Of a stretch of 64,000 nucleotides of DNA, positions 39 to 34,465 are shown piece after piece. Source of the stretch: Thioalkalivibrio sp. ALJ21 (lineage in GTDB: Bacteria; Pseudomonadota; Gammaproteobacteria; Ectothiorhodospirales; Ectothiorhodospiraceae). A model generated the notes under the pieces. It was not told the DNA's origin and made no database searches. It saw only the letters and a list, made by a program, of their open reading frames with translations. Position numbers and translations under genes: made by a program. Positions within the stretch are counted from its first letter, which is position 1. Each line of letters opens with the position of its first letter. Where the stretch lies: the NCBI RefSeq assembly GCF_000378605.1, contig NZ_KB905155.1, positions 992,001 to 1,056,000 of the forward strand. The letters are read 5' to 3'.

Positions 39-90
39 CCCGTACCCGTACCCGTACCCGTACCCGTAGGAGGCCAGCCCTCTGGCCGAT
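39..90. repeat. (CCCGTA)x5 microsatellite running into a single REP
   Basis: Five perfect CCCGTA hexamers at 39-68 run directly into a REP palindrome at 66-90. The REP has the GTAGGAG head, a GGCCAG/CTGGCC stem and a GAT tail. The last hexamer supplies the GTA of the REP head. No gene is seen in 1-187 apart from this repeat and the operator-like site near 141. Confidence 0.85.
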
Positions 91-15049: not shown

Positions 15050-15297
15050 GTAGGAGCCGAGCCCCCTCGGCGATAGGGCGCTGGATAGGTCCGATCGGCC
15101 AGGGGCTGGCCTCCTACATCTGCGGCGGCTCCGAGGACTGTAGGAGCCGAGCCCTCTCGGCGATGGGGCGCTGGATAGGTCCGATCGGCCAGGGGCTGGC
15201 CTCCTACATTTGCGGTGGCTCCGAGATCTGTAGGAGCCGAGCCCTCTCGGCGATGGGGCGCTGGATGGGTCCGATCGGCCAGGGGCTGGCCTCCTAC
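15050..15297. repeat. Tandem array of three 90-bp REP pairs
   Basis: Three inverted REP pairs start at 15050, 15140 and 15230, a period of exactly 90 bp. In each, the left REP has a GCCGAG/CTCGGC stem and the right REP a GGCCAG-class stem. Spacers (GCGGCGGCTCCGAG types) are nearly identical between units, showing recent unit duplication. The array fills the gap between the sat-cysC gene and the membrane pseudokinase gene. Confidence 0.92.
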
Positions 15298-15362
15298 AGT
15301 GGGGGGTGTTGCGGGCGGCGTTGGGGTGTTGCTCGGCCAGGGGTTCGGGCGCCTGGTGAGGG

Positions 15363-15389
15363 CGATCGCCCAGGGGGCTGGGCTCCTAC
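15363..15389. repeat. Single GTAGGAG-headed REP, alternative stem
   Basis: One reverse-oriented REP with loop/stem GCCCAG/CTGGGC ending in CTCCTAC, 13 bp before the sat-cysC stop codon. It is a further stem subtype with the same head. Confidence 0.75.
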
Positions 15390-17117: not shown

Positions 17118-17372
17118 TCCGTCATCCGTTCTCGTTTTACCCCCTGTAGGAGGCCAGCCCTCTGGCCGATTGGGGCATCACCACCACCCCATCGCGCAGG
17201 GGGCTGCGCTCCTACAGGGAAATGCCACCGTCATGCGGCGTGACGAATTCCATTCCGTCATCCGTTGTCGTTTTACCTTCTGTAGGAGGCCAGCCCTCTG
17301 GCCGATTGGGACATCACCACCACCCCATCGCGCAGAGGGCTGCGCTCCTACAGGGGGGATTCGCCATTTTGA
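17101..17372. repeat. 136-bp tandem duplication of the sat 5' end plus REP pair
   Basis: Two copies, 17101-17236 and about 17237-17372, share AATTCCATTCCGTCATCCGT, TCGTTTTACC and a complete REP pair. REP pairs are at 17146-17215 and 17282-17351, mixing GGCCAG-class and GCGCAG-class stems. The copied segment contains the sat start codon and leader, so the region upstream of sat has a second ribosome-binding context. Confidence 0.85.
17212..17253 (-). other. 13-codon mini-ORF, duplicate of the sat-cysC N-terminus ending in a REP
   Basis: ATG 17253 opens a 13-codon frame reading MEFVTPHDGGISL and stopping at the TAG of a REP head (CTGTAGGAG). The sat-cysC protein begins MELITPYGG, so the first codons are homologous. 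The upstream bases are the same as those before sat, so if sat is translated from its ATG this ORF may be too. It is probably a duplication relic; a regulatory leader is conceivable. Confidence 0.5.
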
Positions 17373-17785: not shown

Positions 17786-17901
17786 GTAGGAGGCCAGCCC
17801 TCTGGCCGATAGGGCATCACCAGCACCCCATCGCGCAGGGGGCTGCGCTCCTACAACCGGGAATGCCCCAAGATCTGTAGGAGGCCAGCCCTCTGGCCGA
17901 T
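17786..17901. repeat. REP pair plus single REP
   Basis: An inverted pair at 17786-17854 (GGCCAG-class left, GCGCAG-class right) and a lone REP of GGCCAG class at 17877-17901. They lie between the MarR-type regulator and a PIN toxin gene. Confidence 0.9.
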
Positions 17902-18738: not shown

Positions 18739-18808
18739 GTAGGAGGCCAGCCCTCTGGCCGATCGGGGCTATCCAACACCCAAATCGGCCAGAGGGCTGG
18801 CCTCCTAC
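18739..18808. repeat. Inverted pair of GGCCAG-class REPs
   Basis: A perfect-looking inverted pair, stems GGCCAG/CTGGCC with loops CCCT/AGGG. Its right copy overlaps the 3' end of vapC, whose stop codon TAG is part of the GTAGGAG head. Confidence 0.92.
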
Positions 18809-19185
18809 AGGGGATGCTTCGGGATGTAGTGAACGCCCGGAAGCCCGTCGAAATCGGCGTCCTGGGTCCAGAGATCGGCCTGATGGGCGCGCGCGGTGGC
18901 GTAGATGATGCTGTCGGCGAGCGGGAGAGCGTGCTGGTTGCCAAGACTGGCGGCTGACAGTGCCAAGGGCCCCGTGAGGTCAATGAGTTCGCCCTGCTGC
19001 ATCAGTGCGGCCGCCTGCAGGGCCGCCGCCTCGCCTCGTTGCTGGAGCACCCGTTTGAAAACTTCGTAGAGGCTGATTGTGGGCACGATCAGTTCTGCCG
19101 TGGTCTCGATTGCGTCTGCAAACACATCGGCATTGGGGCCGTCGGCAAAGTATTCCAGCCACGCGGACGAATCGACCACGTTCAC
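18805..19185 (-). CDS. vapC: VapC-type PIN-domain toxin
   Basis: A 126-residue PIN domain: VVDSSAWLEYFADG (first Asp), SLYEVFKRVL (Glu), ALPLADSIIYATARAH (Asp) and DLWTQDADFDGL (last Asp). All four acidic positions of the active site are present. It starts 4 bp inside the AbrB-type antitoxin gene. The last codons read into a REP: KHPL then TAG from the GTAGGAG head, so the C-terminus may have been reshaped by the repeat. Confidence 0.9.
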   Translation of the reverse strand: MNVVDSSAWLEYFADGPNADVFADAIETTAELIVPTISLYEVFKRVLQQRGEAAALQAAALMQQGELIDLTGPLALSAASLGNQHALPLADSIIYATARAHQADLWTQDADFDGLPGVHYIPKHPL

Positions 19186-19388
19186 ACGCGGTCTCCGTCG
19201 CGCGGGATGTCTGGGTCAATGCCCTTGAGGAACCCTCGCATCTCGCTCATGCGCCGCTCGGGTATCAGTTCGATGCGGTCGTCGTACGCAACAATCTGAA
19301 CCTTCTGGCCTGCACGAAGATGCAGCGCCTCGCGTACCGCCTTGGGGATGACGACCTGATACTTCGGAGAAATGGTGAGGGCTTGCAT
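19182..19388 (-). CDS. vapB: VapB-type AbrB-fold antitoxin
   Basis: A 68-residue SpoVT/AbrB swapped-hairpin protein: ALTISPKYQVVIPKAVREAL then LRAGQKVQIVAYDDRIELIP. The C-terminal tail (MSEMRGFLKGIDPDIPRDG) matches toxin-binding tails of VapB proteins. It overlaps vapC by 4 bp and should repress the shared promoter. Confidence 0.9.
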   Translation of the reverse strand: MQALTISPKYQVVIPKAVREALHLRAGQKVQIVAYDDRIELIPERRMSEMRGFLKGIDPDIPRDGDRV

Positions 19389-19461: not shown

Positions 19462-19564
19462 CGCCCCCTGGCTGATTGGGGCATCACCAGCACCCCATTG
19501 CGCAGGGGGCTGCGCTCCTACAACAATCAGACATCCCCTGTAGGAGGCCAGCCCTCTGGCCGAT
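19462..19564. repeat. REPs flanking the RAYT gene on its 3' side
   Basis: A partial pair at 19462-19521, whose left copy has lost its GTAGGAG head and whose right copy has a GCGCAG-class stem ending CTCCTAC. A complete GGCCAG-class REP follows at 19540-19564. The RAYT stop codon is 23 bp further on. Confidence 0.85.
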
Positions 19565-19586
19565 GGGCGTTCGGCTCAACCCCCGA

Positions 19587-20030
19587 TCAAAGCCAGATCG
19601 CATCCCAGTGCGGGTAATCACCCAAGTTACGCACCAGCCCGGCACGCAGGGGGTTGGCGGCGATATAACGGGCCAGCGACGTCAGGTCTTCTTCGCAGCG
19701 TACCGCGTGATCGTGGAAGCCGGGCTGCCAGAGCGCCCGCCCGAGCCTGCGGGCGGTGACCGCCTTGACCGACCGCACGACGGTAGACAGGGACATACTG
19801 TTTCCAAGCGTCATCAGCCAGTGCAGATGGTCCGGCATCACCACATAGGCCAGCGTATCCGCCTGCCCGAGCGCTTGCGCGTGGCGCAGCGTAGCGACCA
19901 GTGCACGGGCGGCGGCGAAGTCGCGGAACACCGGTGTGCGATCCCGCGTGACGGTGGTGATGAGGTAGATGCGCCCGGGCTCGGAATAGCGGCCACGGCG
20001 CAGGGCCTGAGCGTGAGGTTTGCCGTCCAT
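19587..20030 (-). CDS. REP-associated tyrosine transposase (RAYT, Y1/HUH family)
   Basis: A 147-residue Y1 transposase starting at ATG 20030. The metal-binding HUH motif is MPDHLHWL (His 68 and 70). The probable nucleophilic Tyr is Y122 in LARYIAANPLRAGLV, and ALWQPGFHDHAVR at 99-111 is typical of RAYTs. It has REPs on both sides, as is usual for RAYT genes. Family members bind a GTAG tetranucleotide beside the REP hairpin and nick it, spreading REPs. GTAG is exactly the head of the repeats here. Length and motifs suggest an intact enzyme. Confidence 0.9.
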   Translation of the reverse strand: MDGKPHAQALRRGRYSEPGRIYLITTVTRDRTPVFRDFAAARALVATLRHAQALGQADTLAYVVMPDHLHWLMTLGNSMSLSTVVRSVKAVTARRLGRALWQPGFHDHAVRCEEDLTSLARYIAANPLRAGLVRNLGDYPHWDAIWL

Positions 20031-20145
20031 GGCATCGCTCCCGTTGTGCTGGTTGTTTTGTTCTCCAAGGGGCGGCGGCGTGGCCTGGTGGTCTTCGGCT
20101 GGCGGTAAGCCAGATTGTAGCCGTTGGGGATTTGTCTGGCTTCCT

Positions 20146-20344
20146 ATCGCGCAGGGGGCTGCGCTCCTACACGATCCCCGGGGCCCATCGTAGGAGGCCA
20201 GCCCTCTGGCCGATGGGCCTGTCCAACATCCGGTCGGCCAGGGGGCTGGCCTCCTACGCGGAATCACGCCCCCTGTAGGAGCGCAGCCCCCTGCGCGATG
20301 TGGCGCTGGGCATGCCTCAATCGGCCAGACGGCTGGCCTCCTAC
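20146..20344. repeat. REP cluster upstream of the RAYT gene
   Basis: A single GCGCAG-class REP (20146-20170) and two inverted pairs (20190-20257 and 20275-20344). The second pair joins a GCGCAG-class left copy to a GGCCAG-class right copy. They fill the space between RAYT and ugd. Confidence 0.9.
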
Positions 20345-23840: not shown

Positions 23841-23909
23841 GTAGGAGGCGAGCCTCTCGCCGATAGGGTGCTGGATACGCCCCCATCGGCCAGAGGGCTG
23901 GCCTCCTAC
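23841..23909. repeat. REP pair with GGCGAG-class stem
   Basis: The left copy has GTAGGAGGCGAGCCTCTCGCC, a stem class seen nowhere else in the window. The right copy is of GGCCAG class. It is followed 15 bp later by the REP interrupted by the IS3 element. Confidence 0.88.
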
Positions 23910-24015
23910 GCAAGACACACCCCTGTAGGAGCGCAGCCCCCTGCGCGATGTGCTGGTCTAATTTTCGTGGACACCTCGATCGGTGGAATGATTGGGATCT
24001 GATCGAGGAGACGAT

Positions 24016-25195: not shown

Positions 25196-28874
<3,679 letters not shown>

Positions 28875-34355: not shown

Positions 34356-34465
34356 GATCGGCCAGGGGGCTGGCCTCCTACGCAAGACACACCCCTGTAG
34401 GAGCGCAGCCCCCTGCGCGATGCGACGCCGGACACGCCCCATCGGCCAGAGGGCTGGCCTCCTAC
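34356..34465. repeat. REP half plus one 83-bp-type REP unit
   Basis: A lone GGCCAG-class REP (34356-34381) and a full unit at 34397-34465 with the same spacer (GCGACGCCGGACACGCCCC) and GCAAGACACACCCCT linker found in the 25-kb array. The sequence identity over 9 kb implies transposition or recombination between the two loci. Confidence 0.9.

Follow-up and report, generated by a model that had tools for sequence, protein, structure and literature searches.

The window analyzed here, a 64,000-nucleotide stretch within the 2.96-Mb genome of Thioalkalivibrio sp. ALJ21 (labelled G000), contains a RAYT gene (19587–20030, minus strand, stop included) encoding a protein of 147 aa with an HxH motif at residues 68–70 and a catalytic-type tyrosine, Tyr122, in the sequence YIAANP. 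The longer RAYT ORF matched Pfam Y1_Tnp (34.9 bits; cut-off 23), the RAYT matched NCBIfam REP_Tyr_transpos (NF047646.1; 149.4 bits, cut-off 80), and its nearest solved relative is TnpA-REP (4er8, E 1e-9), in an alignment that spans both the HxH motif and the tyrosine. Inverted REPs of a kind abundant in this genome lie on both sides of the gene. CGC (−) and GCC (+) REPs, named for their stem class as described below, lie downstream (19497–19564), and CGC (−), GCC (+), GCC (−), CGC (+), and GCC (−) REPs lie upstream (20146–20344). Two small ORFs beside the RAYT on the minus strand (18805–19388), presumably resembling a PIN-domain toxin and AbrB-type antitoxin pair, recur in Thioalkalivibrio sp. 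ALJ3 (G019) and in G024 with 96–97% identity, at most about 2 kb from the RAYT. The genome encodes two further and longer Y1_Tnp proteins (L002 and L003), which scored 67.6 and 42.1 bits, under the cut-off of 80. No such REP was found within their 3.2–3.3-kb loci, and the distance to the nearest one, among the matches listed, is about 12 kb for one protein and over 100 kb for the other. The first-pass annotation had assumed a single RAYT, and the paralogue count agrees that only one is of the REP-mobilizing kind. RAYT paralogues each matched to one stem class were rejected here, L002 and L003 being far relatives with no such REPs nearby.

The window has 47 copies of GTAGGAG; shuffles predict 3.48 and reached 8 at most. 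Of the 47, 43 start a hairpin and were taken as REPs; no hairpin was found at the other four (10362 −, 15990 +, 39316 −, and 42606 +). The REPs are built from the head GTAGGA, a 6-bp stem, a short C-rich loop, and a GAT tail. Sorted by the three central stem pairs, the 43 REPs comprise 26 GCC (stem GGCCAG), 12 CGC (GCGCAG), 3 CCG (GCCGAG), 1 CCC (GCCCAG), and 1 GCG (GGCGAG). These findings confirm the initial description of GTAGGAG REPs with five stem classes in which both arms change together. Of the head described there as a fixed GTAGGAG, the unpaired part is GTAGGA, the final G already being the first base of the stem; the GAT tail is present in 41 of the 43 window REPs (90 of 93 genome-wide), with exceptions at 19497–19521 and 20233–20257. 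Apart from the REPs beside the RAYT, the window holds a lone GCC REP (66–90, plus strand) and three homotypic GCC(+)/GCC(−) pairs, or REPINs, at 847–914, 2615–2683, and 18739–18808, the last with arms of 35 nt that are 94% complementary and 10 nt apart. Heterotypic REPINs include three CCG(+)/GCC(−) units followed by a lone CCC(−) in an array at 15050–15389, two GCC(+)/CGC(−) units at 17146–17351, and a GCC(+)/CGC(−) unit with an extra GCC(+) at 17786–17901. A GCG(+)/GCC(−) REPIN plus one CGC(+) lies at 23841–23949, an array of GCC(−) followed by four CGC(+)/GCC(−) REPINs at 25219–25579, and GCC(−), CGC(+), and GCC(−) at 34357–34465, where four other species have the heterotypic REPIN in collinear orientation.

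The genome was then scanned with both three-base cores left free, so that pairing was no requirement there. With up to three mismatches, 91 places were found, compared to 5 with the reversed pattern; the 4 matches with three mismatches resemble background. Rescanning of the stretches around REPs with 3-base loops allowed gave about 93 REPs, of which at least six, and possibly one or two more, are 3-base-loop copies. The 93 fall into six stem classes, 59 GCC, 17 CGC, 6 CCC, 6 GCG, 4 CCG, and 1 CTC, and variation outside the core affects the head (GCAG in 2), the closing pair (in 4), the loop, and the tail. Many REPs are arranged in local tandem arrays, and 76 of the 93 sit in 38 inverted head-out pairs that have the short spacer (12–22 nt) and predicted fold of REPINs. 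The CCC/GCG heterotypic REPINs of this genome occur only in one array (C1:802374–807617; L055); such pairs were also seen, among the matches listed, in G019, G016, G039, and G021. The spacer of L043 (C1:865333) resembles by eye an inverted copy of the L044-type spacer that lies at a distance of 1.6 kb (C1:866916), which suggests core exchange between these neighboring REPINs.

The composition of the repeats (GTAG end, unpaired GA dinucleotide, 6-bp stem, and GAT as the conserved 3-nt motif opposite) is that of the GTAG-1 REPs, which were reported in Thioalkalivibrio sp. K90mix (Di Nocera et al. 2013, PMC3733652). The same paper describes sub-families that carry alternative, complementary residues in the stem for most GTAG families, and homo- and heterodimers for REP families. 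One RAYT, several stem types, and dimers of unlike REPs also recall E. coli TnpA-REP and its BIMEs, whose y, z1, and z2 REPs are all substrates of this protein. However, the bulge that the E. coli protein needs (PMC8266576), and the bulged imperfect stem that marks this type (group 2), are replaced here by perfect 6-bp stems. The absence of a long C-terminal tail together with perfect stems characterizes group 3, and the present RAYT has 147 aa and REPs with perfect stems. The group 3 REPtrons of Stenotrophomonas and Marinomonas share the perfect stems but have other loops; they were assayed biochemically, with loop and pairing found important and stem identity modestly so (Corneloup et al. 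2021, PMC8266576). RAYT-linked inverted REP pairs are likewise known as the REPINs of Pseudomonas fluorescens SBW25, although these are described as symmetrical, and each RAYT there is accompanied by a REPIN group of its own (Bertels and Rainey 2011, PMC3116915).

In a search of named genomes, RAYTs 95% identical to that of ALJ21 were found in ALJ3 and in T. thiocyanoxidans ARh2. The orthologues in G019, G024, and G039 (94–95% identical) are flanked by CGC and GCC, as here, the RAYT of G014 (71% identical) by GCG and GCC, and that of G017 (65% identical) by CCG and CCC. The RAYT lies 0.3 kb from ugd in ALJ21, about 2.4 kb in G017, and 0.9 kb in G039; a search of 20 kb in G019 and in G024 found none. 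Since the RAYT is near ugd in three of these genomes, stem pairs have probably changed at a single RAYT locus. Numbers of REPs with at most one mismatch, among the matches listed, are 85 (G000), 90 (G012), 110 (G019), 94 (G024), 63 (G039), 47 (G017), and 7 (G014) in genomes with a RAYT at least 65% identical. Counted in the same way, genomes without such a RAYT have 223 (G035), 56 (G021), 46 (G016), 41 (G036), 39 (G032), 38 (G031), and 0 to 21 in the others. RAYT presence was therefore dropped as a predictor of REP number across the genus, the relation being unclean.

Covariation was measured by pair counting on the 20 distinct REP sequences of the ALJ21 genome. The score was 0.413, compared to 0.097 (sd 0.031) in shuffles, none of 500 reaching 0.413; the rows are related copies and hence not independent events. 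Pairs 2, 3, and 4 vary on both sides only (8, 4, and 4 of the 20 rows), pairs 1 and 5 are invariant, and pair 6 departs in three rows, by one wobble and two breaks. All six pairs are standard in 18 of the 20 sequences, one of them through a G-U at the loop end, and none of the 93 REPs of the genome has a broken core. The stem covariation for which the first-pass annotation had proposed a test is therefore borne out in this genome. Relatives are less strict: one unpaired stem position was found in 127 of 652 REP-like matches beside 104 RAYTs, part of them due to chance or to a wrong loop choice by the scan, and one-sided cores are present in arrays of sister species.

The history of the stem classes was assessed at orthologous sites. 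Seventeen dispersed REP sites, lying outside the RAYT cluster and the 802–807 kb array, were compared with ALJ3. Fifteen were found at the same place (two by one flank only), including one array with an extra unit that has a one-sided core; the other two had no match among the 19 stretches fetched. Over 14 aligned sites (26 REPs), differences were counted at 587 of 5110 flank positions, 2 of 156 head positions, 3 of 312 stem positions, 9 of 104 loop positions, and 68 of 229 spacer positions, the last figure inflated by inversions. Matchable arrays mostly kept class and order and changed in copy number. Exceptions are the 802374 pair and the CCG of the 991-kb array, both missing from ALJ3, and the REP at 1012 kb, which is CGC in ALJ21 but GCC in G039. 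In 246 orthologous REP comparisons among six genomes, the core was the same in 216, changed on one side in 20, and changed on both sides in 10. The two-sided changes traced to L197 (four), to L218 (four), and to L164/L184/L196 (two), and those of the latter two groups were set aside by hand because tandem REPINs had been matched across. By our reading, L197 is the sole true two-sided change in place, and in it two pairs and the loop are altered together, in the manner of a replacement; about six one-sided events then stand against one genuine two-sided event.

These comparisons bear on two explanations for the stem classes that differ from the one preferred here. The first-pass annotation had proposed that the RAYT reads the head and the hairpin shape, with the stem sequence either drifting freely in place or selected solely to keep its pairing. 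The restriction of both-sided variation to the three central pairs in this genome is in its favor, as are the group 3 assays in PMC8266576, where stem swaps had modest effects and mismatches strongly reduced or nearly abolished cleavage; slow change in place would also be expected from selection for pairing alone. However, the classes are identical at all 15 sites shared with ALJ3, the stems have changed far less than their flanks, and the preponderance of one-sided changes, with L197 the only two-sided change truly in place and replacement-like, comes near to refuting drift under pairing, so that we consider this explanation quite unlikely. Because stems at fixed sites hardly change, and changes in place are more often one-sided, the classes look like copied lineages. 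On these sequence comparisons, they are most likely old lineages spread by the copying of whole REPs or REPINs, rather than products of ongoing stepwise drift. The lineages could instead each have been seeded by a RAYT of their own, now lost or confined to relatives, with the minor classes as relics. The stem pairs beside the RAYTs of G017 and G014 fit such a history, and so does the CCC/GCG array, which has no RAYT within 19 kb and is also present in ALJ3, partly at the same place. Against it, the present RAYT is flanked by both GCC and CGC, no RAYT or remnant was found in the 19 kb around the CCC/GCG array (best E 1.7) or in 20 kb with the ALJ3 array, and G035 has 223 REPs of this type among the matches listed but no RAYT match at E 1e-10, although it is a draft of about 240 contigs from which the RAYT may be missing. 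Independent seeding is thus somewhat doubtful. The notion of one RAYT mobilizing several classes agrees with its direct flanking by CGC and GCC, but mobilization of CCC, GCG, CCG, and CTC by the present RAYT is unsupported.

The pairing of different stems was surveyed at 104 distinct RAYT loci, 6 of 110 having been dropped because their RAYT DNA was already in the set. After 24 loci with fewer than three perfect REPs were set aside, 45 of the remaining 80 were heterotypic (two stems, each present at least twice), 16 had a second stem once, and 19 were homotypic. At the heterotypic loci, 109 of 112 head-out dimers were heterotypic (shuffle mean 62.9, sd 5.6; none of 1000 reached 109), as were all 126 tail-out dimers; arrays inflate these counts, and the unique stem pairs number 21. 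The two stems of these 21 pairs differ at positions 2 to 6 in 3, 8, 13, 8, and 3 cases, respectively, position 1 being fixed by the search and hence unable to vary. The stems have a common loop sequence at 33 of the 45 loci and share none at 12; loop constancy is thus not universal. Within ALJ21, 14 of 18 REPINs in the RAYT cluster are heterotypic, compared to 3 of 15 elsewhere when the five CCC/GCG REPINs are left out (Fisher p=0.0016).

Folding energies of the long hairpin and of the twin hairpin were calculated with DNA parameters at 37 °C, and the difference was taken as the former minus the latter. The 16 homotypic REPINs of ALJ21, all GCC/GCC, favored the long hairpin by a mean of 19.6 kcal/mol (range 15.0–25.3), and the 22 heterotypic REPINs by 3.5 kcal/mol (range 0.3–8.8). 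The long hairpin is therefore predicted to be preferred in all 38 REPINs, the heterotypic ones included, and by this prediction heterotypy brings the twin-hairpin fold close to it in energy. Perfect inverted arms span 9–34 nt in homotypic REPINs and 5–12 nt in heterotypic ones, with one of 18.

Spacer orientation was compared between species at sites where both flanks matched in order; six genomes contributed 181 REPINs, which yielded 152 orthologous pairs (sister stretches were drawn from the matches listed, and G024 was covered only in part). When typed by core differences, homotypic REPINs gave 38 collinear, 35 inverted, and 14 ambiguous spacers in 87 comparisons, and heterotypic REPINs gave 39, 0, and 7 in 46; mixed REPINs gave 7, 4, and 8. 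Typing by one arm gave 34, 33, and 13 for homotypic, 38, 0, and 7 for heterotypic, and 12, 6, and 9 for mixed REPINs. A stricter threshold left 26 inverted homotypic comparisons and the strictest 13, with none among heterotypic REPINs at either, and homotypic spacers at other addresses, used as a null, yielded 6.3, 2.1, and 1.0% inverted calls at the three thresholds. Because the orientation comparisons share sites and species, they were also counted by site. Inversion was found at 6 of 12 homotypic, 0 of 6 heterotypic (Fisher p=0.054), and 2 of 4 mixed sites, and with one-arm typing at 5 of 9 homotypic and 0 of 5 heterotypic sites (p=0.086). For sites in at least three genomes, the counts were 6 of 7 homotypic and 0 of 2 heterotypic, these two being the only purely heterotypic ones. 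By site, the link between heterotypy and orientation is suggestive.

Individual sites illustrate the pattern. At C1:193347 (L304–L317, 14 species), three species have one orientation and two the opposite, and in three more the site holds a CCG|GCC pair whose orientation is unclear. In the remaining species, the REPIN belongs to another family (GCCTGC, TT loop) in three, has collapsed in one, and is absent from two. By eye, the TT-loop REPIN of G017 is reversed relative to those of G016 and G018. The gap at this site is short and intergenic, and stem types and families vary among species as though insertions had targeted it repeatedly. At the heterotypic CTC/GCC site, 4 of 15 loci are whole and collinear, G016 lacks the right REP, 8 have no REPIN between the flanks, and 2 have no flank match. 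The loop base swaps together with the spacer in L034/L156 and L156/L171 and stays in L188/L215. Concerted changes in both REPs were seen in 11 comparisons (four sites), compared to 64 single-REP differences. One of them, a G to A change at position 12 in L038, keeps the long hairpin and breaks the small one. Two comparisons scored as ambiguous are inverted when read by eye and have spacers whose ends are self-complementary: the homotypic L020/L022 of the second (TT-loop) REP family (forward 0.78, inverted 0.97) and the mixed-type L015/L021 (forward 0.81, inverted 1.00). At other RAYT loci, a fixed threshold gave 22 collinear, 0 inverted, and 18 ambiguous heterotypic comparisons, 2, 0, and 4 homotypic ones, and 9 ambiguous mixed ones. 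A homotypic Limnohabitans site was collinear by eye in all three genomes with the REPIN; in Limnohabitans L252 and L256, the flanks of the REPIN site are 23–24 bp apart, compared to 126 bp in the query, and these are probably empty sites. Covariation in homotypic spacers was considered as proof of selection for the long hairpin and was rejected, because the counts are too few and are confounded by inverted spacers.

The inverted spacers could be assembly artefacts of perfect inverted repeats, given that inversion is limited to sites with longer perfect arms and that the assemblies of five of the six genomes consist of 5 to about 60 contigs. The assembly words in common use are longer than 21 or 31 nt arms. 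Perfect arms are shorter than 31 nt in 34 of the 35 inverted pairs and shorter than 21 nt in both genomes in 5 (L034/L156, L156/L171, L156/L195, L188/L215, and L174/L204, from three sites), and the short arms of these 5 argue against assembly error. In addition, in L034/L156 the loop base moved together with the spacer, and G016, with a 2.74-Mb contig, is a partner in several inverted pairs, so an artefact appears very improbable. Another possibility is that the RAYT itself inverts homotypic REPINs by excision and rejoining. RAYTs are HuH nucleases that cut at REPs, and excised REPINs have been inferred from reads in P. fluorescens (PMC3116915). Inverted states were nevertheless found between G016 and G021, which carry only a RAYT of another loop type, and even with an earlier loss in mind we consider this route unlikely. 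As for the heterotypic pairs, they may be a neutral founder effect in which an array unit with two different REPs was amplified. Many heterotypic dimers do lie within tandem arrays, and stem class is tied to strand at 34 of the 45 heterotypic loci; 21 different stem pairs, together with at least eight changes of heterotypic/homotypic state on the RAYT tree (99 rows, few resolved forks; L025, L029, L030, L031, and L032 excluded), speak against a founder effect, which we retain as a tentative possibility. The orientation of heterotypic REPINs, which are mostly in arrays near RAYTs, could similarly be fixed by array structure instead. Heterotypy is not required, as 19 RAYT loci are homotypic.

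We interpret the locus as a GTAG-1-type REP/RAYT system in which the RAYT reads the head, loop, and closing pair, the stem classes are copied lineages, homotypic spacers invert, and heterotypy locks orientation, and we judge this combined reading modestly probable. The RAYT would recognize three features of the folded hairpin, namely the GTAG(GA) head, the loop, and the pair that closes the loop, and would demand of the mid-stem nothing beyond pairing; this model draws on the position map and on assays published for other RAYTs. Whole REPs or REPINs would be copied, and arrays would grow or shrink. A homotypic pair would act as one long inverted repeat whose inner spacer can invert and whose two REPs sometimes change together. 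Such inversion would be produced by template switching or recombination between the inverted arms, and heterotypic stems would break the long repeat and keep orientation fixed where seen. Template switching or recombination between arms, interrupted by heterotypic stems, is the probable cause of inversion. In yeast, template switching at short inverted repeats in coding genes is reported to homogenize arms and invert spacers (PMC8604942), the same two outcomes as in these bacterial REPINs. A Hin/Fim invertible switch is defined by a dedicated recombinase acting on inverted sites; the inverted segment here is only some tens of bp. We infer that orientation locking, or the balance between folds, is the reason that heterotypy persists; a long hairpin and an alternative "clover" fold were proposed earlier for the SBW25 REPINs (PMC3116915). 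A bolder version, that homotypic REPINs are flip-flop elements that invert repeatedly and homogenize their REPs, with covarying stems as a device that breaks the long palindrome and keeps the small hairpins perfect, is possible but less probable than not.

Several elements of this interpretation are already in print, including compensatory REP changes, dimorphic REPs, clustering around RAYTs, heterodimers, and one RAYT acting on several REPs. Different REP classes beside syntenic RAYTs, for example, have been reported (PMC3686654). The first-pass annotation had considered a single RAYT with several stems unusual, but such cases are published (PMC8266576, PMC3733652, PMC3686654) and the single-RAYT inference is ordinary for the field. 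What is new is that the classes form inverted dimers, with a link to spacer orientation. REPIN spacer inversion was not found in the literature searched, subscription journals being mostly outside its reach, and the main texts of PMC8049555, PMC3116915, PMC3733652, PMC2817692, PMC3686654, and PMC8266576 do not contain the word "inversion". The question of why REP dimers so often join two different REPs was left open in PMC3733652, where preferential heterodimers are said to have "no obvious explanation" and escape from SbcCD is suggested; spacer inversion is not reported there. The frequent flipping of matched pairs, but not of the mismatched ones examined, may explain why mismatched pairs exist. 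Coordinated changes in two arms need not mean selection for pairing, because template switching can copy a change across arms, and inverted spacers would mislead alignments and typing built on such repeats.
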